DNA of 64,000 bases, taken from NCBI RefSeq assembly GCF_019797745.1, contig NZ_VOSI01000004.1, positions 392,079 through 456,078 of the forward strand. The letters are read 5' to 3'. Both the position numbers and the translations under genes were made by a program. Below, piece by piece: positions 10,509 to 38,614 of the stretch. Within the stretch, counting starts at the first letter, position 1, and each line of letters starts with the position of its first letter. This DNA comes from Edaphocola aurantiacus. GTDB lineage: Bacteria > Bacteroidota > Bacteroidia > Chitinophagales > Chitinophagaceae. The notes under the pieces were generated by a model. That model did no database searches and had not been told where the DNA came from. It was given only the letters and a program-made list of their open reading frames with translations.

Positions 10509-10925
10509 GATATGCAGATCGTAGGTGATCGTAGCTCCGCCTGCTCTTAAAGTAAAGGCTACCGAACAATATTTGTCAAGAGACAGATCAATGGCGCGTT
10601 TTACAGAAGGCTCAATCGCCGGATCTCCCTTCATTGTAAAGCGCATATGGATCGTCTGCCATAAAGCAGGCTCCTTATCTTTTTCCCTTTCTCCATCTAC
10701 AGTTACGACATAATCCTCGACAGATATTTTCATTTTATTCAGGATCATCAGTACATCAATACTGGCACAGCCTGCCAGGGCATTCAGCAATAACATCATG
10801 GGGCTGCTGCCACTGTTGTTGCCGCCCAGTTCCGGGCGAATGTCCATACGGGTAACGATTCCCTGGTCATCTGTTGTAGCAAATCCGTAAGGTGCTGCTG
10901 CTATGGTAAGTTTGGTTTGTGGCAT
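10497..10925 (-). CDS. OsmC/Ohr-family peroxiredoxin-like protein
   Basis: A 142-residue OsmC-fold protein; the family reduces organic hydroperoxides with two Cys. Both are present: Cys53 in the helix LNALAGCASIDVL and Cys120 in LDKYCSVAFTL. I prefer the ATG at 10925 (MPQTKLTIAA), because the nine extra residues from the upstream ATG at 10952 lie outside the fold. It is transcribed against the DUF3037 gene and overlaps it by 12 bases at the 3' end. Confidence 0.92.
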   Translation of the reverse strand: MPQTKLTIAAAPYGFATTDDQGIVTRMDIRPELGGNNSGSSPMMLLLNALAGCASIDVLMILNKMKISVEDYVVTVDGEREKDKEPALWQTIHMRFTMKGDPAIEPSVKRAIDLSLDKYCSVAFTLRAGGATITYDLHISAD

Positions 10926-11009
10926 AAAAGGAGTATTAGAGTGCAGTAGCAAAATAGAAAATTTTATGGAAAAAAATCAGGATTGTGTTTATTAAGTAAA
11001 TACGATCTT

Positions 11010-11867
11010 ATGAATACGCACATCCCTCCCGCCACCGGATACCTGGATATCCTCTTTGCTCATCGCAACAAACAATATGGTGCTTATGAGCTGCGTAACA
11101 ATTATAACCGCCGTATGATCAAAGCCGGATTGATGGCTATGACTATAGTAGGCCTGCTGGCGCTATTAGCCGCAAAAGACAAAACGGACGATGCGGAATT
11201 AACCATTACGGGTAAATCTCCTGTAGTAACAGATACGACTGTTGTTCAAATTAATGAATTTGACTTACCTGAAAAGGAAATCGGAAAGCCTATTGGTCAC
11301 ACCGGGCGCACTGCAAAGACGGCTGATTTTGCAGTCCCCGTTATCGTAAAAAATCAGGCAGCAGATAAACCGATTACACAAATGCCCGATAAAGATGCGC
11401 TGGCCGGACCGGTCGATAATCCCGGGTTGGCCAATGGTACCGCCATTGCTATGGACAATAGCCTGTCTGATGGGCCGGCCGGTGACCTGCTCAGTCGTAA
11501 GGGCGACCCGAAAGATACTGCTGTGGCCACAGGACCGGTAGTGATGGAGGATAAGGTAAGGGATATGGCCGATGAAATGCCAGAGTTTCCCGGTGGTATG
11601 CAGGCCTGGAAAAAATACCTGGCCGATAACCTTCGATACCCACAGGCAGCACGTGTAGATGAAATAGAAGGTACGGTATACGTAAATTTTGTGGTGGCTA
11701 AAGACGGCAGTATTTCCCGGGTTAAGGTTGCCAGAGGTATAGGCGGTGGTTGCAGTGAAGAGGCGGTAAGGGTACTGGAAAATGCACCCCGCTGGAAAGC
11801 CGGCAAACAAAAGGGAACTGCCGTGAATGTAAAGATGACCATACCCATCCGCTTCGCATTCAGATAA
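11010..11867 (+). CDS. tonB: TonB energy transducer
   Basis: A 285-residue inner membrane protein that passes proton-motive force to TonB-dependent outer membrane receptors. The N-terminus has the Bacteroidota hallmark FAHRNKQYGAYELRNNYNRRM followed by one membrane helix. A periplasmic linker follows, then the C-terminal TonB domain with FPGGMQAWKKYLADNLRYP, EGTVYVNFVV and the final MTIPIRFAF. I choose ATG 11010 (MNTHIPPATG) rather than 10983, because the N-terminal motif then sits at the usual distance. No exbB/exbD is adjacent. Confidence 0.93.
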   Translation: MNTHIPPATGYLDILFAHRNKQYGAYELRNNYNRRMIKAGLMAMTIVGLLALLAAKDKTDDAELTITGKSPVVTDTTVVQINEFDLPEKEIGKPIGHTGRTAKTADFAVPVIVKNQAADKPITQMPDKDALAGPVDNPGLANGTAIAMDNSLSDGPAGDLLSRKGDPKDTAVATGPVVMEDKVRDMADEMPEFPGGMQAWKKYLADNLRYPQAARVDEIEGTVYVNFVVAKDGSISRVKVARGIGGGCSEEAVRVLENAPRWKAGKQKGTAVNVKMTIPIRFAFR

Positions 11868-32811: not shown

Positions 32812-33102
32812 CTATTCGTATTGTTTCAGCCGCTGACGCAGCGTCAGCATCTGCCGGTTCAGTTGCTCCATTTTATCCAGCAGATGCACGATGGCTTCAA
32901 TGCCTTCGATATTAATGCCCAGGTCATTATGCAGGCGGGTTATGCGTTCCAGTTCATTGAGGCGGTTCATATCCAGGTAGTCTTCCTGCTCAATGGTGAT
33001 GATTTCGATTAGTTCATACCGGTATAGTTCTGTAATAAAGCCCTGATCCAGATCATGAAGACTGCAATATCGGCTCACCAGTATCAGATTATCTTGCTGC
33101 AT
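32812..33102 (-). CDS. cbpM: CbpM-type modulator of the J-protein CbpA
   Basis: A 96-residue, MerR-like small protein. The segment LILVSRYCSLHDLDQGFITELYRYELIEI and the acidic stretch before NELERITRLHNDLGINIEGIEAIVHLLDKME match CbpM, which binds the J-domain of CbpA and blocks its stimulation of Hsp70. The C-terminus is a helix with QRLKQYE. It starts 3 bases after the cbpA stop, so the two are translated together, as in E. coli. Confidence 0.85.
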   Translation of the reverse strand: MQQDNLILVSRYCSLHDLDQGFITELYRYELIEIITIEQEDYLDMNRLNELERITRLHNDLGINIEGIEAIVHLLDKMEQLNRQMLTLRQRLKQYE

Positions 33103-33105
33103 ATC

Positions 33106-34005
33106 TTATGATTTTTGAAGTTCAGATAATTGTTTGAATAAAGCCTTTTGCGCTTCGGTAAGGCCCGTGGGCACAAGCACATTGTAGCTTACATATAAAT
33201 CTCCGAAATGGCCTTCTGATTTATACACCGGCATGCCCTTTCCTTTCAGGCGGGCTTTACTGCCGTTCTGGGTTTCTGGTTTTATCTTCAACTTTACCTG
33301 CCCGTCCAGTGTACCCACAGAAACCTCGCCACCTAATACTGCGGTATACAGATCAATGTCTACCGTCAGGTGCAGATCATTGCCGGAGCGTTTAAAGAGG
33401 GTATCATTCTCTATATGAATAGTCAGGTACAGATCACCGGCCGGACCGCCATTGGCCCCTGCCTGACCGTAACCGGCCAGTTTTATTTTCTGTCCGTCCT
33501 CTATGCCTGCCGGGATAGTAATGCGCACATTTTTGCCGTTTACGGTGAAGGTCTGTTTGTGTGTATGGTAAGTGTCAGACAGTTTCAGGTTCATCTCACC
33601 CGAGATGTCTCCGCCACGAAAGCGGGCCTGTCTTCTGCCGGACTGTTGTGCACCGAAAAAAGCCTCAAAGAAATCGGAATGATCTCCGCCACCAAAATTA
33701 CCCCAATCGCCATAGGCCTCCTCGCCGGATGCCTGACTCTGCCGGCTCTGCGATTGCCGGGCCTGCTCAAACTGTTCGGCATGCTTCCAGTCTTTACCAT
33801 ACTGATCATATTTCTTCCGGCTTTCGGGGTCGCTCAGTACCTCCTGTGCCTCATTGATCTGCTGGAACTTCTGCTGCGCGTCCTTGTCGTCCGGGTTCAG
33901 GTCCGGATGGTATTTACGCGCCAGTTTGCGGTATGCTTTTTTAATATCCTCTGAGCTGGCCTCTTTGTTCAGGCCCAGGACTTTGTAGTAATCAATAAAC
34001 TCCAT
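33106..34005 (-). CDS. cbpA: CbpA-type DnaJ co-chaperone
   Basis: A 299-residue J-protein. The J-domain at 1-70 contains HPD at 33-35 (KYHPDLNP). A Ser/Gln/Gly-rich linker (about 80-130) follows, then two DnaJ C-terminal beta-domains with [18 protein letters not shown] and [22 protein letters not shown]. There is no zinc-finger domain, which defines the CbpA class. It delivers substrates to Hsp70 and can bind DNA. It is divergent from the GrpE-like and Hsp70-like genes, with 193 bases between the start codons, so it may serve that Hsp70. Confidence 0.95.
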
Positions 34006-34198
34006 ATGGGTAAGTATTAAAGATCAGAGATAGGGTCATGTCGGGACATGGCAAATAAAGATACGCAAAGCAGGAGTAACGCGAAAGGGCTGTAATGTTA
34101 AAACATTGTATATTATTAAGGCAGATCATGCATAATTACCAGCCGGATAGCGGAAATAAAATGATTTTTTTCTTAATTTGCTGCAAATGCCATAAAAC

Positions 34199-34504
34199 AT
34201 GCAACAGGATATACAGCTGATCAACCAGGTATTCGAGATCGGCCAGAAGATAGAGCAGGAGCAGCTGGCTGCAAAATTCGAGCGCAATTTCAATAAAATC
34301 TATACCCTTTTTGAAGAAGAGGGGCTGCATTGTATAAATCCTCTGGGGGAAAAATACTCTGAAAGCCGAACCGATTGTGAGGCCAGCATTGTAGGCGCGG
34401 GTGGCCGCAATATGAAAATTACTAAAGTCATTAAACCGATTGTCTACCGGCAACAGCAGGGACAGATGGTCCTGATACAAAAAGGAATTGTGATCGTAGA
34501 ATAG
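34199..34504 (+). CDS. GrpE-head-like protein, putative nucleotide exchange factor
   Basis: A 101-residue protein. A short helix (about 1-35, ending FERNFNKIYTLFEEE) is followed by a beta-rich half that resembles the wing (head) domain of GrpE: GLHCINPLGEKYSESRTDCEAS compares with the GrpE pattern of Gly, then P-x-GE-x-F/Y, then HEA. A later VIKPIVYRQQQGQMVLIQKGIVIVE compares with V-x-x-GY...x-x-x-V. The long dimerising coiled coil of normal GrpE is missing. It sits 43 bases before the Hsp70-like gene. The similarity is weak and read by eye only. Confidence 0.6.
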   Translation: MQQDIQLINQVFEIGQKIEQEQLAAKFERNFNKIYTLFEEEGLHCINPLGEKYSESRTDCEASIVGAGGRNMKITKVIKPIVYRQQQGQMVLIQKGIVIVE

Positions 34505-34547
34505 GCTGTGCACCTGTTTTAAGCATTCAGACAAATCAAACATCAAC

Positions 34548-37115
34548 ATGAAATCAATTAATTTTGGAATAGACCTGGGCACAACCAATTCCCTGATCAC
34601 GAAATATGAAAACGGAAAGGTTACGATTTTTAAAAACCCGGTCGGCCATAAAGATACACTGGCCTCAGTCGTGGCATTTCGCCCCGATCGTACGCTGGTA
34701 GGAGATAAAGCAAGGGAGTTACTGACCAAAGATCCGATCAATATATTTGCCAACTTCAAACGCCGTATGGGTACAGACGACAAGTTTTATGTCGTAAGCC
34801 TGGACGAAAATGTGACCCCGATAGAATTATCGACACTGGTACTGAAAGAACTCAAGCAATTTATATACTCCGGAGAGCAGGCAGAAGCGGCCGTGATTAC
34901 CATTCCGGCAAGTTTTGATACCATGCAGAGCAACGCCACCAAAAAGGCAGGCATGGCTGCTGGTTTTGAAGAAGTGGTACTGCTGCAGGAGCCTATAGCC
35001 GCGAGCCTTGCCTACTTCAACAGCCGTGAGTTAGCGGATGATAAAGAAGGCTACTGGCTGGTATATGATCTGGGTGGCGGCACATTTGATATTGCCCTGA
35101 TGCGCATACACGAAGGCGAAATGAAAGTTGTAGATCATGAAGGGAATAATTTCCTTGGTGGCGCGGATTTCGACTTCGGAATTATTGAGCAGATCATTGT
35201 ACCCTATATCAATGAGCATTTTGAGATAGAAAACTTCGAGCAGGAATTAAGGTCCCGCAATGGGCGCTATGAATCCCTGTTTTATGAGCTGATCTATAAA
35301 TCGGAAGAAGCTAAAAAGGAACTGTCACACCAGGGGCAGACCACTATTGAGTTTGACCTGTCGCATGAAGGAACACGGCACAATGTAGCCGTTCCGGTAA
35401 GCCGTGCTCAGTTTGAAGATACTATAAACCTGCGGGTGCAGGAAACACTGAAAATGTTGCTGGACATCCTGCATCGTAACAAGGTACAGGCCGGCGATAT
35501 TGAAGAGATACTGATGGTTGGTGGCAGTACATACATTCCTTTTGTACGGCAGCAACTGCAGGCTGCAACCGGTATTGCGGTTAATTCAGCGATAGACCCT
35601 ACCACGGCCGTAGCCATAGGCGCAGCATACTATGCCGCCAATAAATATTACCAGCCTAAAAATAATAATATAGTACTGGGCCAGAATGTAGATGACCTGC
35701 TCAACAGCCTGACAACAGGAGAGGATGGTGTGGATGAGGCATATAGTGACTGGGAGCCGGCTGCGGTACAATTAAAAGTATCTTACAGCAAGATGAGCAA
35801 GGATGTGGAGGAAGTGCTCATCATTAAAGCAGAAGGAGCGCTGGATAGCAAGAGCTACCGCATTATCCGCAGCGATGGTGGTTTTGATACCGGTTTTGTA
35901 CCCCTGCGGTCTAAGTTTACCGAATTCCTGCCCTTGCTGCCCAATATCAATAATACCTTTTACCTGAGGGTGTATGACGAAGATCAGAATGAGATCCGCT
36001 CTGCAATGGAAGAGATCAGCATTACCCACGGGCAGTTCAATATTTCCGGGCAGCCATTGCCTCAGGATATCTGTATAGAGGTCGATGACAAGGATAATCA
36101 TACCACAAAGCTGGAACTGATTTTTGAGAAGAACAGCATCCTGCCGCAGAAAAGAACCTTATATCGCGAAATCTCCAAAACCATCAAACAGGGATCGGAG
36201 GAGCAACTGATCATCAATATTATGGAGGGCGATCGTTTTGCCCGCCCCTTATCTAACCTGGTTATTGCCTGCATTGTGATCTCGGGTAAGGACCTGAGTT
36301 CTGACCTGATCAAAGGTTCGGATATAGAATTGCATATTTCCATGTCCGATAACCGGGAGCTGCATACCGAAGTGTTCCTGGTGATGACCCAGCAGGAATT
36401 TAAAAATGTATTCTCCATGTCGGAGAAGCAGGTGAATGTAGACCGGCTTAAAGAGCAGTATATCGATCTGGAAAACGAGATACGCAACAGCATTAAAATG
36501 TTTAGTACAGACGAAAATGATGTATGGGCTATACAGGCCAATGATTTTCTGAAAGAACTGGCACAGAATAAGGCAGAGCTGTTTAAGCTGCAGGAATCGG
36601 ATCGTACCGATGCCAAATACGTGATCGCAGAAATGCTGAACCGTATCTCCAAAGCATATGATAAGCTGGGTGGTGAAGACCGCCTGGAACGCCTGAGGTA
36701 TGAATACTTTGAAGCCAAAGAATTCTGCGAGAACCATATGGCCATGGTTGATTTCCGTAAAGAAGAACTGGTACAGAAATTCCAGAAACTGATTGCCGGA
36801 GAGCATCATGTACTCATCAGCCGCAATCCTTCCATATTAGAAAAAGCCACCGAAAAGATCAATGATCTGGGCTGGGATATCCATTGGAATACCCTCAGCT
36901 ACCTGATCTCCCGTTATGAAGGGTTTAAAGGGCTGTCACCGGATCAGTTTACCAATTATTCCGGGGTGCAGGCCATTATCAAGTCTGCAGATGCAGCCTT
37001 GCAGGGAGAGAAGTACTACGAGTTCAGGCAACATGTGTATAATATCACACACCTGCTGGTACATAATGATTACAAGGTTAAAAACGAAGACTTTAAAGGT
37101 ACCGGAATCGGATAG
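34548..37115 (+). CDS. Divergent Hsp70-family chaperone with an extra domain
   Basis: An 855-residue protein, against about 640 for DnaK. The ATPase domain (about 1-370) is canonical: GIDLGTTNS at 7-15, LGGGTFD at 175-181, GGSTYIP at 325-331. The DnaK interdomain linker (DVLLLDVTP) is absent. Instead, about 140 residues (380-520) form a beta-rich domain with many Asp/Asn. A degenerate substrate-binding beta domain follows at about 523-620 (EKNSILPQKRTLYREISKTI, INIMEGDR), then about 235 helical residues. It follows the GrpE-like gene and precedes the membrane protein gene by 5 bases. Not the housekeeping DnaK. Confidence 0.93.
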   Translation: MKSINFGIDLGTTNSLITKYENGKVTIFKNPVGHKDTLASVVAFRPDRTLVGDKARELLTKDPINIFANFKRRMGTDDKFYVVSLDENVTPIELSTLVLKELKQFIYSGEQAEAAVITIPASFDTMQSNATKKAGMAAGFEEVVLLQEPIAASLAYFNSRELADDKEGYWLVYDLGGGTFDIALMRIHEGEMKVVDHEGNNFLGGADFDFGIIEQIIVPYINEHFEIENFEQELRSRNGRYESLFYELIYKSEEAKKELSHQGQTTIEFDLSHEGTRHNVAVPVSRAQFEDTINLRVQETLKMLLDILHRNKVQAGDIEEILMVGGSTYIPFVRQQLQAATGIAVNSAIDPTTAVAIGAAYYAANKYYQPKNNNIVLGQNVDDLLNSLTTGEDGVDEAYSDWEPAAVQLKVSYSKMSKDVEEVLIIKAEGALDSKSYRIIRSDGGFDTGFVPLRSKFTEFLPLLPNINNTFYLRVYDEDQNEIRSAMEEISITHGQFNISGQPLPQDICIEVDDKDNHTTKLELIFEKNSILPQKRTLYREISKTIKQGSEEQLIINIMEGDRFARPLSNLVIACIVISGKDLSSDLIKGSDIELHISMSDNRELHTEVFLVMTQQEFKNVFSMSEKQVNVDRLKEQYIDLENEIRNSIKMFSTDENDVWAIQANDFLKELAQNKAELFKLQESDRTDAKYVIAEMLNRISKAYDKLGGEDRLERLRYEYFEAKEFCENHMAMVDFRKEELVQKFQKLIAGEHHVLISRNPSILEKATEKINDLGWDIHWNTLSYLISRYEGFKGLSPDQFTNYSGVQAIIKSADAALQGEKYYEFRQHVYNITHLLVHNDYKVKNEDFKGTGIG

Positions 37116-37120
37116 CATAT

Positions 37121-38614
37121 ATGCAGTATAAATCACCCATACGTTTTTTTGAATATTGCCATATTGAAATCTCAGACCCGGAAGCCCTTAATGGTTCCCG
37201 GGCCAAAAAGCAGATTGCCGCTGAATTTAATATGGAGCCATCCGGTATCATCCGGCTGGACGAAATAGATTACAACAAGCAAGATATTCTCAGTTGCCTG
37301 GAATCGCCCAATATGATTGTGCAGCTTGCTTTTCACCAGAAGATATGGGCGCATAAAAGCCTGCTGCATTTTCTGGAGTCAGGCATTGTTGAGGAACAGT
37401 TTGCAGCCGATATTGATACCGTAAAAGAAGATATACCCTTTGTCGGGTTCTGCTCGCCGTACTTTGCTCCACAGTTTAATAAAGAGATGAAGCAGCGCCT
37501 GGCAAAAGATGACTTTGATGCCGCCGCTGACTGGATTGTGTATTGCCAGATGATCCTGCTGGGAGATGGGGAGACAGCCTTTGCCAGTACCACCAGCTAT
37601 CTTGAGCAGGCTATACGCCTGTTCCGGAACCTTAATAAAACGACCTTTCAGAACAGAAGGGACGAAGTGGCCGCATGGACGAAAGACTGGGCCCGTTTTA
37701 TCAACTGGTTGCCGGATAATCTCTACAGCCAGAAAGATGATCTGGCGATGGTACTGATCAATTTCTGTGTGGAAATACAGAATGCTGATGAGCATACCTG
37801 CTTCCTGATCAGCAAGCAAATGATACAGCTGGATTATGTAGATCCGTCTAATGCGAGGCTGATCCGGGAAAACCATGAAATATATGCCGAAAAAGTAGCG
37901 GGTACCGCTCTTAATCCCGAGGGAAAGAAACGGGCAGCTCCTCAGAAGAAATCAAAACCAAATTATATCTGGATCATCCTGATCTGCGTCATCGCTTTTG
38001 TCCGGATAATGGATAAAGGTTGTAATAATAATGGTGGTCGAGACAATACTCAGCTGGTCATGAGCGATGAGCAGCTCGATGCCTGGGGGGCTAAGATGTT
38101 TTTCGATAATGCGAGGAATACCGGCATGTCCGACAGCCGATCCGGGATGTTGCAAACGATGGACAGTGCGATGCAGACCCTGCCCGTATACTTCAGCTTC
38201 TTTCAGTCTGTAGATAGTACTCTGGAAACCTCCCTGGATATTAAAAATAAGACAGATAGTACCATATACCTGTATTTCCTCGAGCCAGACGATACTAAGC
38301 TGGATATTACCCTGGCACCGGGAGAGACCATGCGCTTAAGGAAAGGAGGCCTGTCCGGAATTGATTTTATGGTGAATGCCAGCAATGAACTGAAACTGTC
38401 CACACTGGATAGTATGGAGTGTTTTTACCTTAATGTCAAAGGAGATAAGGAACTGAACGCCCTGTATTCCGATACTGCGGCCACTTATCTTGCCGATAGT
38501 GATTATAAACGACGCGTGCGCCTGAATATTACTACCCGTAACGGGCGCTTTTATGCCAGCTCACCCGACAAGCTGGATGTATACCGGGATGTTATCAGAA
38601 TAGGCGGATATTGA
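37121..38614 (+). CDS. Single-span membrane protein linked to the Hsp70-like gene, unknown family
   Basis: A 497-residue protein. The N-terminal about 280 residues are soluble, mostly helical and rich in Asp, Glu, Trp and Tyr. A positively charged stretch (GKKRAAPQKKSKP, 268-280) precedes one membrane helix at about 282-297, which predicts the N-terminus in the cytosol. The remaining about 200 residues would be periplasmic, with a beta-rich pattern (TLETSLDIKNKTDSTIYLYFLEPDD). No J-domain HPD is present. It starts 5 bases after the Hsp70-like stop. It may anchor or feed that chaperone at the membrane (inference). Confidence 0.8.
   Translation: MQYKSPIRFFEYCHIEISDPEALNGSRAKKQIAAEFNMEPSGIIRLDEIDYNKQDILSCLESPNMIVQLAFHQKIWAHKSLLHFLESGIVEEQFAADIDTVKEDIPFVGFCSPYFAPQFNKEMKQRLAKDDFDAAADWIVYCQMILLGDGETAFASTTSYLEQAIRLFRNLNKTTFQNRRDEVAAWTKDWARFINWLPDNLYSQKDDLAMVLINFCVEIQNADEHTCFLISKQMIQLDYVDPSNARLIRENHEIYAEKVAGTALNPEGKKRAAPQKKSKPNYIWIILICVIAFVRIMDKGCNNNGGRDNTQLVMSDEQLDAWGAKMFFDNARNTGMSDSRSGMLQTMDSAMQTLPVYFSFFQSVDSTLETSLDIKNKTDSTIYLYFLEPDDTKLDITLAPGETMRLRKGGLSGIDFMVNASNELKLSTLDSMECFYLNVKGDKELNALYSDTAATYLADSDYKRRVRLNITTRNGRFYASSPDKLDVYRDVIRIGGY

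Follow-up and report, generated by a model that had tools for sequence, protein, structure and literature searches.

The window analysed here is a stretch of 64,000 nucleotides from Edaphocola aurantiacus (contig NZ_VOSI01000004.1, positions 392,079 to 456,078), and our subject is a group of five adjacent genes within it whose products resemble the parts of an Hsp70 chaperone cycle. On the minus strand lie a CbpM-type gene (32812-33102), with a MerR_2 match of 87 bits in Pfam, and a CbpA-type gene (33106-34005), with Pfam matches to DnaJ (97 bits) and DnaJ_C (157 bits). Across a divergent gap of 193 bases (34006-34198), the plus strand encodes a GrpE-head-like protein of 101 residues (34199-34504), a divergent Hsp70 of 855 residues (34548-37115) and a membrane protein of 497 residues (37121-38614). 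The first of these combines a short helical segment with a GrpE-type head and is a predicted nucleotide exchange factor; the second scores 229 bits against the Pfam Hsp70 family (cut-off 20.6); the third has one hydropathy span and is predicted to be oriented N-in. All five reading frames and the divergent gap were confirmed as laid out in a preliminary description of the locus, which had proposed that the five products act together. Our analysis indicates that the unit consists of three genes, those for the GrpE-like protein, the Hsp70 and the membrane protein (the trio), and not of five.

The trio Hsp70 is an extra Hsp70 of its host, because DnaK, GrpE and DnaJ are encoded elsewhere in the 3.69 Mb genome. 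The housekeeping DnaK is located on contig C1 and scored 881 bits, compared to 231 bits for the trio Hsp70 in the same genome search, and the canonical GrpE and DnaJ are encoded on contig C3, away from the trio. Moreover, the trio Hsp70 did not reach the equivalog cut-off of TIGR02350 (DnaK), scoring 233.6 of 822.55 bits. The proposal that this protein is not the housekeeping chaperone is upheld. The nearest named relative of the host among the loci compared is Edaphocola flava, a member of Chitinophagaceae, whose Hsp70 (L043) is 99% identical.

Linkage of the three genes across Bacteroidota

We analyzed the distribution of the trio in a set of 79 genomes, consisting of the host's own genome (G000) and relatives. 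Some match to the trio Hsp70 was present in 78 of the 79, but only eight contained one at E <= 1e-100 (G000-G005, G010 and G035). The membrane protein (E <= 0.001) was found in exactly the same eight genomes. Among the 11 close loci L043-L053 (a twelfth, L054, being dropped at 24% identity and 351 residues), the GrpE-like gene is located directly 5' of the Hsp70 gene in all 11, and the membrane-protein gene directly 3' in 10, with a contig end cutting L051. In L048, from a Ferruginibacter metagenome-assembled genome, the membrane-protein gene (10528-11300) is represented by a frame of 76 residues followed by broken frames, reflecting either real decay or an assembly error. The flanks of the trio are unlike between most of these loci and are common to L043 and L050, and to L044 and L045. 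At greater distance the layout is altered: in L056 and L080 the membrane-protein gene comes first, L081 has it convergent and L082 divergent. The GrpE-like gene adjoins the Hsp70 gene in every listed trio locus. Since the linkage persists through rearrangement, it appears functional rather than accidental. The expectation that the Hsp70 and membrane-protein genes are neighbours in related genomes was thus confirmed.

Profile searches of 296 Bacteroidota extended these observations. The GrpE-like profile matched six, and a profile of the Hsp70 C-terminal part matched nine, six of them at E <= 1e-100; these six genomes (G000, G001, G161, G274, G290 and G347) are the very ones that the GrpE-like profile had matched. 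Six were also matched by the membrane-protein profile, namely G000, G001, G290 and G080, together with two weak matches. G161 and G274 each encode a diverged relative of the membrane protein beside the Hsp70 or GrpE-like gene. The relative in G161 (L081) scored 40.2 against the profile (best of 60 shuffles 21.8) and that in G274 (L082) scored 28.9 (best of 60 shuffles 22.7), compared to 12.4-20.1 for three unrelated neighbours. Because the trio persists in other families, a chance association is very unlikely.

Several observations weigh against this reading. The L082 match is limited to 37 columns, and the neighbouring membrane proteins in G347, with profile scores of 12.8 and 15.1, are unsupported as homologues. 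G080 encodes a relative of the membrane protein and neither a GrpE-like protein nor a trio Hsp70, and G010 carries a second, orphan copy (L057, 9646-10392) with no adjoining trio Hsp70. Taken together, the proposal holds on these points: the Hsp70 is dedicated rather than housekeeping, it is paired with a GrpE-like protein, and a membrane protein is linked to them. Note that the G080 relative (L084, 8318-9652) is located near a Vsr endonuclease gene, and that the immediate neighbours of the trio in L081 (8588-11706) are genes for components of the gliding/type IX secretion machinery, GldN and GldM by Pfam and a GldL-like protein by eye.

No conserved linkage to the trio was found for the CbpA-CbpM pair, with CbpA adjoining the trio in three of the eight trio genomes (G000-G002). 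In G003 and G004, CbpA is encoded on the far side of the membrane-protein gene at a distance of ~6 kb, and in G005 and G010 on a different contig from the trio; G035 (91% complete) yielded no full-length CbpA match and only a DnaJ-sized frame at E 1.6e-25. In a protein search, CbpA matches at E <= 1e-60 were present in 30 of the 79 genomes, seven of the eight with the trio and 23 of the 71 without it (not counting G077, G064 and G047, where the matches were split or partial). In L044 and L045, a thiolase gene is directly beside the GrpE-like gene, 5' of the trio, with no CbpA between; the same thiolase gene adjoins the 3' end of the CbpM-type gene in the window. The role proposed for CbpA and CbpM as the J-protein arm of the system is unsupported by this distribution. 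The pair is likely a separate unit outside the trio, and we predict that it serves the housekeeping DnaK. The family assignments had been called firm, and those to Hsp70 and to the Pfam families DnaJ, DnaJ_C and MerR_2 stand, whereas the exact names CbpA and CbpM do not. The CbpM-type protein scored 28.5 of 138 bits with the NCBIfam CbpM equivalog and marginally higher with HspR (29.6 of 105), and the CbpA-type protein scored 200.6 of 403 bits with the curved DNA-binding protein equivalog. As both proteins miss these cut-offs, we use the weaker terms CbpA-type and CbpM-type.

The trio Hsp70 and its GrpE-like neighbour

The trio Hsp70s were compared in an alignment of 45 rows (A5), comprising 42 of 120 listed proteins (556 found), the window protein and two loci. 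The nucleotide-binding domain (NBD; residues 1-366, 34548..35645; this and all following features on the plus strand) retains the conserved ATPase residues as invariant columns. Codon 144 (34977..34979), encoding valine, aligns with the position of E. coli R167. According to PMC7289447 and PMC13012618, R167 is the NBD arginine contacted by the aspartate of the J-domain histidine-proline-aspartate (HPD) motif, and Hsp70 chaperones have their key switch in the action of this aspartate on the arginine. The arginine is present in 21 of 21 canonical Hsp70s and absent from all 45 trio Hsp70s and from nine wider Hsp70s, a count that excludes the Hsp70s of L026, L054 and L059 and, from L058, the second one, all of which were missed by the motif filters.

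A second change affects the interdomain region. In an alignment to the 21 canonical Hsp70s, ~90 residues of other sequence replace the DVLLLDV linker, and predicted strands point to an extra beta domain (residues 407-494, 35766..36029) between the NBD and the substrate-binding domain (SBD). The preliminary description had noted a missing DnaK linker and an additional domain; both are seen in the alignment, and the latter appears as a beta domain in the predicted structure. The SBD-beta (residues 507-623, 36066..36416; predicted strands) is followed by a long, all-helical lid (residues 631-834, 36438..37049; predicted helices) and by the conserved C-terminal tail FKGTGIG (residues 849-855, 37092..37112), modeled with a predicted local distance difference test score (pLDDT) < 50. 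This tail is exact in 29 of the 45 trio Hsp70s, with one-residue variants in 15 more. By possession of NBD and SBD-beta the protein is a member of the Hsp70 superfamily, and residues 3-625 of its model superpose on residues 2-504 of DnaK (7krv_B), with 448 residues aligned. The GrpE-signature loop is likewise kept: it measures 33 residues in 17 of 17 DnaK proteins, 23 in four of four HscA-type proteins and 27-32 in all 45 trio Hsp70s (31 in the window protein). Thus, the trio Hsp70 retains the ATPase residues, the GrpE-signature loop and SBD-beta, whereas the DnaK linker and the HPD-contact arginine are lost.

The 101-residue protein encoded upstream reached no Pfam family cut-off, including that of PF01025, the sole PF01025 match of G000 being located on contig C3. 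Its proposed likeness to the GrpE head holds at the profile level. Alignment of a profile of 18 GrpE-like sequences to 29 canonical GrpEs (29 of 30 loci) with hhalign resulted in a score of 28.9 (E 3.1e-4, probability 39%), higher than all 200 shuffled or reversed controls (maximum 25.1) and all 62 unrelated windows (maximum 17.9). On the GrpE side, the alignment runs from the last portion of the helical region into the first portion of the head, with a confident stretch of 33 columns. As the protein consists of 101 residues, there is no room for the long GrpE stalk. We predict from these sequence comparisons that it acts as the nucleotide exchange factor of the trio Hsp70.

The membrane protein and its N-terminal domain

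The 497-residue protein reached no Pfam cut-off. Its predicted structure begins with a small domain (residues 1-88, 37121..37384), proposed below to be J-like and devoid of HPD, followed by an all-helical domain predicted to be cytoplasmic (residues 94-258, 37400..37894). The transmembrane segment (residues 279-301, 37955..38023) is the only hydropathy span, in agreement with the earlier assignment as a single-span protein. As the N-terminal side of this one span is rich in lysine and arginine (KKRAAPQKKSK), the protein is predicted to be oriented N-in, C-out. The segment ends at C301, which is nearly invariant in alignment A4; a cysteine near the span end is present in 25 of the 26 rows with a called span (27 rows). 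A beta-rich domain (residues 348-493, 38162..38599), predicted to be extracytoplasmic, matched pVHL in Foldseek with a probability of 0.99 but at E 0.02. Relatives in L047, L052, L053 and L060 end just after the transmembrane segment and lack this domain.

Residues 1-88 are predicted to form helices at 6-12, 25-37, 53-61, 65-77 and 79-87 and strands at 43-46 and 49-52 (pLDDT 88 to 95 by block). The order of the helices fits a J domain, with a beta-hairpin at the place of the HPD loop. The relationship was further analyzed through two intermediate families, a Chitinophaga-type family and the NPYR-type partner proteins of larger Hsp70 cassettes (see below), using a J-domain set from 26 of 30 loci and, as controls, 200 shuffles and 64 unrelated windows. 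The window-type N-terminus is related to the Chitinophaga-type family (E 6e-13, probability 98%) and scored 18.8 with the NPYR-type, with no shuffle and no unrelated window as high. The Chitinophaga-type in turn scored 16.9 with J domains (one shuffle and no window as high) and 19.1 with the NPYR-type (no window as high), and the NPYR-type N-termini scored 24.9 with J domains, above all controls. No HPD was seen in the inspected N-termini of any of the three types.

A number of results weigh against J-domain ancestry. When the window-type N-terminus was compared to J domains directly, 182 of the 200 shuffles and 57 of the 64 unrelated windows scored as high. Pooling it with three Chitinophaga-type sequences left 41 shuffles and 15 windows as high, and pooling with all 43 left nine shuffles as high, a weak result. 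Two shuffles equaled the score between the Chitinophaga-type and the NPYR-type. The NPYR profile consists of four sequences (L058, L085, L086 and L087), three of which start with NNPYR and that of L086 with KNLHR, and whole NPYR-type proteins scored 21.1 (L058), 20.5 (L087) and 17.5 (L086) against the membrane-protein profile, with best shuffles of 20.9, 25.1 and 23.1, respectively. PF00226 (J domain) matched neither the window membrane protein nor eight relatives and wider partners, and the three PF00226 matches of G000 are all away from the membrane protein. Finally, no J domain occurs among the listed structural matches, which hardly cover residues 1-90. Weighing both sides, we lean slightly towards the N-terminus being a degenerate J domain.

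The alternative with the best claim is that the membrane protein is an anchor and client adaptor unrelated to J domains, the Hsp70 being driven by its client alone or by a J protein from another locus. The negative outcome of the direct comparison and the weakness of the pooled profiles are as expected in that case. In contrast, it leaves unaccounted that two intermediate families outscore nearly all controls when compared to J domains, and that the predicted helices follow one another as in a J domain, a beta-hairpin replacing the HPD loop. We take this alternative seriously, while considering it the less probable outcome.

The NPYR-type helical proteins are encoded in the cassettes L058 (7143-17198), L085 (3286-10905) and L087 (3914-11526), together with an Hsp70 lacking the HPD-contact arginine, a ~300-residue protein with a predicted membrane span and a GrpE-head-like C-terminus (by eye), and a Ser/Thr kinase-AAA+ fusion (by Pfam for L087, by eye for L058 and L085). 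L085 and L087 also contain a TerB-like protein (below the Pfam cut-off). A distant Hsp70 system from another family of the phylum (L086, 1975-9037) comprises an Hsp70, a 216-residue GrpE-like protein (by eye), a TPR/OmpA-like protein (by eye) and a 941-residue protein that has a transmembrane segment, a start resembling NPYR and, by eye, cysteines like those of a zinc ribbon. The N-terminal domain of the membrane protein also occurs in ~820-residue TPR-repeat proteins (P0178-P0180 and P0182), and P0178 has a hydrophobic region before the repeats.

A possible membrane-tethered Hsp70 machine

Based on the gene linkage, the domain anatomy (in part from predicted models) and the loss of the canonical trigger residues, all borne out by the analysis, we propose that the trio is a membrane-tethered Hsp70 machine in which the Hsp70 would be docked by a J-like, HPD-less domain and freed of ADP by the GrpE-like protein. 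We judge the chances of this proposal to be even. ATP binding would open the substrate domain of the Hsp70, and the cytoplasmic part of the membrane protein would dock the Hsp70 at the inner membrane, perhaps via the FKGTGIG tail. The clients of the Hsp70 would be membrane or exported proteins, bound at segments that are exposed. Hydrolysis may be triggered by the client or by non-HPD contacts, perhaps via the extra beta domain at the place of the linker, and ADP release by the GrpE-like protein would reset the cycle. Such a machine would run without the usual J-protein switch.

Alternatively, the Hsp70 may not be an ATP-cycling chaperone and may instead serve as a holdase or regulator. The missing J-contact arginine and canonical linker, together with the additional domain and the length of the helical lid, are reminiscent of the eukaryotic atypical Hsp70s Hsp110 and Ssz1. 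However, the ATPase signature residues are invariant throughout the 45 rows, the GrpE-signature loop is kept, and the GrpE-like gene accompanies the Hsp70 gene in every listed trio locus, making this option improbable in our view.

The trio could also belong to a system for phage defence or another conflict, comparable to the kinase/AAA-Hsp70 cassettes and the GTPase-centred Hsp70/GrpE systems. Its distribution is patchy. In L080 (4905-5655) it is followed by TerB (28.3 bits, cut-off 24.4) and DUF6804 genes, and the L087 cassette, beside HsdM, ends (10704-11526) with TerB-like (19.8 bits, below the cut-off) and DUF6804 genes; the DUF6804 proteins of the two loci are closely similar by eye. Single strong PADLOC matches were obtained among 74 flanking proteins (for example RTasRmuC 1.6e-162, RtcR_PspF2 4.3e-111, ShosA 5.2e-59, PD-Lambda-2_B 9e-32 and PsyrA 2.1e-28). 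In contrast, the best PADLOC match of the five window proteins was only at E 0.063, none of the 13 PADLOC families had more than one member matched (74 of 109 listed flanking proteins), and several of the matches fit ordinary Pfam genes (RmuC, DNA-processing protein A and a sigma-54 activator). The GrpE-like profile detected no relative in a scan of IMG/VR. In the GTPase-centred conflict systems described in PMC7159879, as in the trio, Hsp70 and GrpE occur together in small gene sets of varying content, and in some of these a further protein bears a DnaJ domain or TPR repeats; the difference is that they are built on TRAFAC GTPases and GAP1-N2 proteins. Neither of these was noticed beside the trio, no search by name having been made, and no TRAFAC GTPase is among the 25 of 106 Pfam families listed for the 74 flanking proteins. 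We regard a conflict role as unlikely. A gene run that resembles the published systems was seen at L059 (527-11920; G048), encoding GrpE, two tandem Hsp70s, a 985-residue protein, a GTPase-like protein (by eye) and an 853-residue protein.

Least probable of all is a five-gene unit with CbpA as the J protein of the trio Hsp70 and CbpM as its inhibitor: it is suggested by an adjacency, over 193 bases in the window, that recurs in the close relatives L043 and L050, and is contradicted by the distribution of CbpA described above, including a trio genome lacking a full-length CbpA, by the thiolase neighbours of L044 and L045, and by an Hsp70 without the arginine and linker on which an HPD-type J domain acts.

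Returning to the proposed membrane-tethered machine, we compared the trio to known Hsp70 systems. In PMC8215388, prokaryotic Hsp70s fall into three types, DnaK, HscA and HscC, the latter two being thought not to need an exchange factor. There, the partners of HscC are the tail-anchored DjlC and presumably DjlB. E. coli HscC parallels the trio Hsp70 in being a specialised form whose gene lies near those of its membrane-inserted partners, implying work at the plasma membrane (PMC8215388). In contrast to the trio, DjlB and DjlC carry J domains and HscC is without the GrpE signature (PMC8215388); in the trio, no HPD was seen in the partner, the Hsp70 retains the GrpE-signature loop and a GrpE-like gene belongs to the unit. 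The DnaK-DnaJ/CbpA-GrpE system shares with the trio an Hsp70 with NBD and SBD-beta, the ATPase residues and a GrpE-type head. Unlike that system, the trio has no DVLLLDV linker and no HPD-contact arginine, and has an extra predicted beta domain, a GrpE-like protein of 101 residues and a membrane-anchored partner. The mitochondrial import motor (Pam16/Pam18, mtHsp70 and Mge1) likewise employs a membrane-associated Hsp70 with an exchange factor. Pam16 is a J-like protein without HPD, and Pam18 is a second, HPD-bearing J protein that fires the ATPase. The trio differs from the import motor in having no second HPD-bearing J gene in the unit. Our literature search found no paper on a trio of GrpE-like protein, Hsp70 and membrane protein, and the available part of PMC11019930, on DnaK paralogs, does not treat it.

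A more far-reaching interpretation, which we advance tentatively and consider rather unlikely, is that the trio represents a fourth type of bacterial Hsp70 machine. Both halves of the universal trigger would have been lost together, the arginine and linker on one side and HPD on the other. The pseudo-J protein in the membrane would keep the Hsp70 at the inner membrane, perhaps through a grip on the FKGTGIG tail like that of TPR proteins on EEVD, and the beta domain in the linker's place would fire hydrolysis.

In conclusion, the trio provides a conserved, naturally occurring Hsp70 in which the ATPase residues and the exchange-factor loop are retained without the arginine and linker, next to a partner with no visible HPD, and so asks whether an Hsp70 can fire in another way. 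If the proposed mechanism is true, it would add to Bacteroidota a membrane-tethered Hsp70 machine with its own exchange factor.

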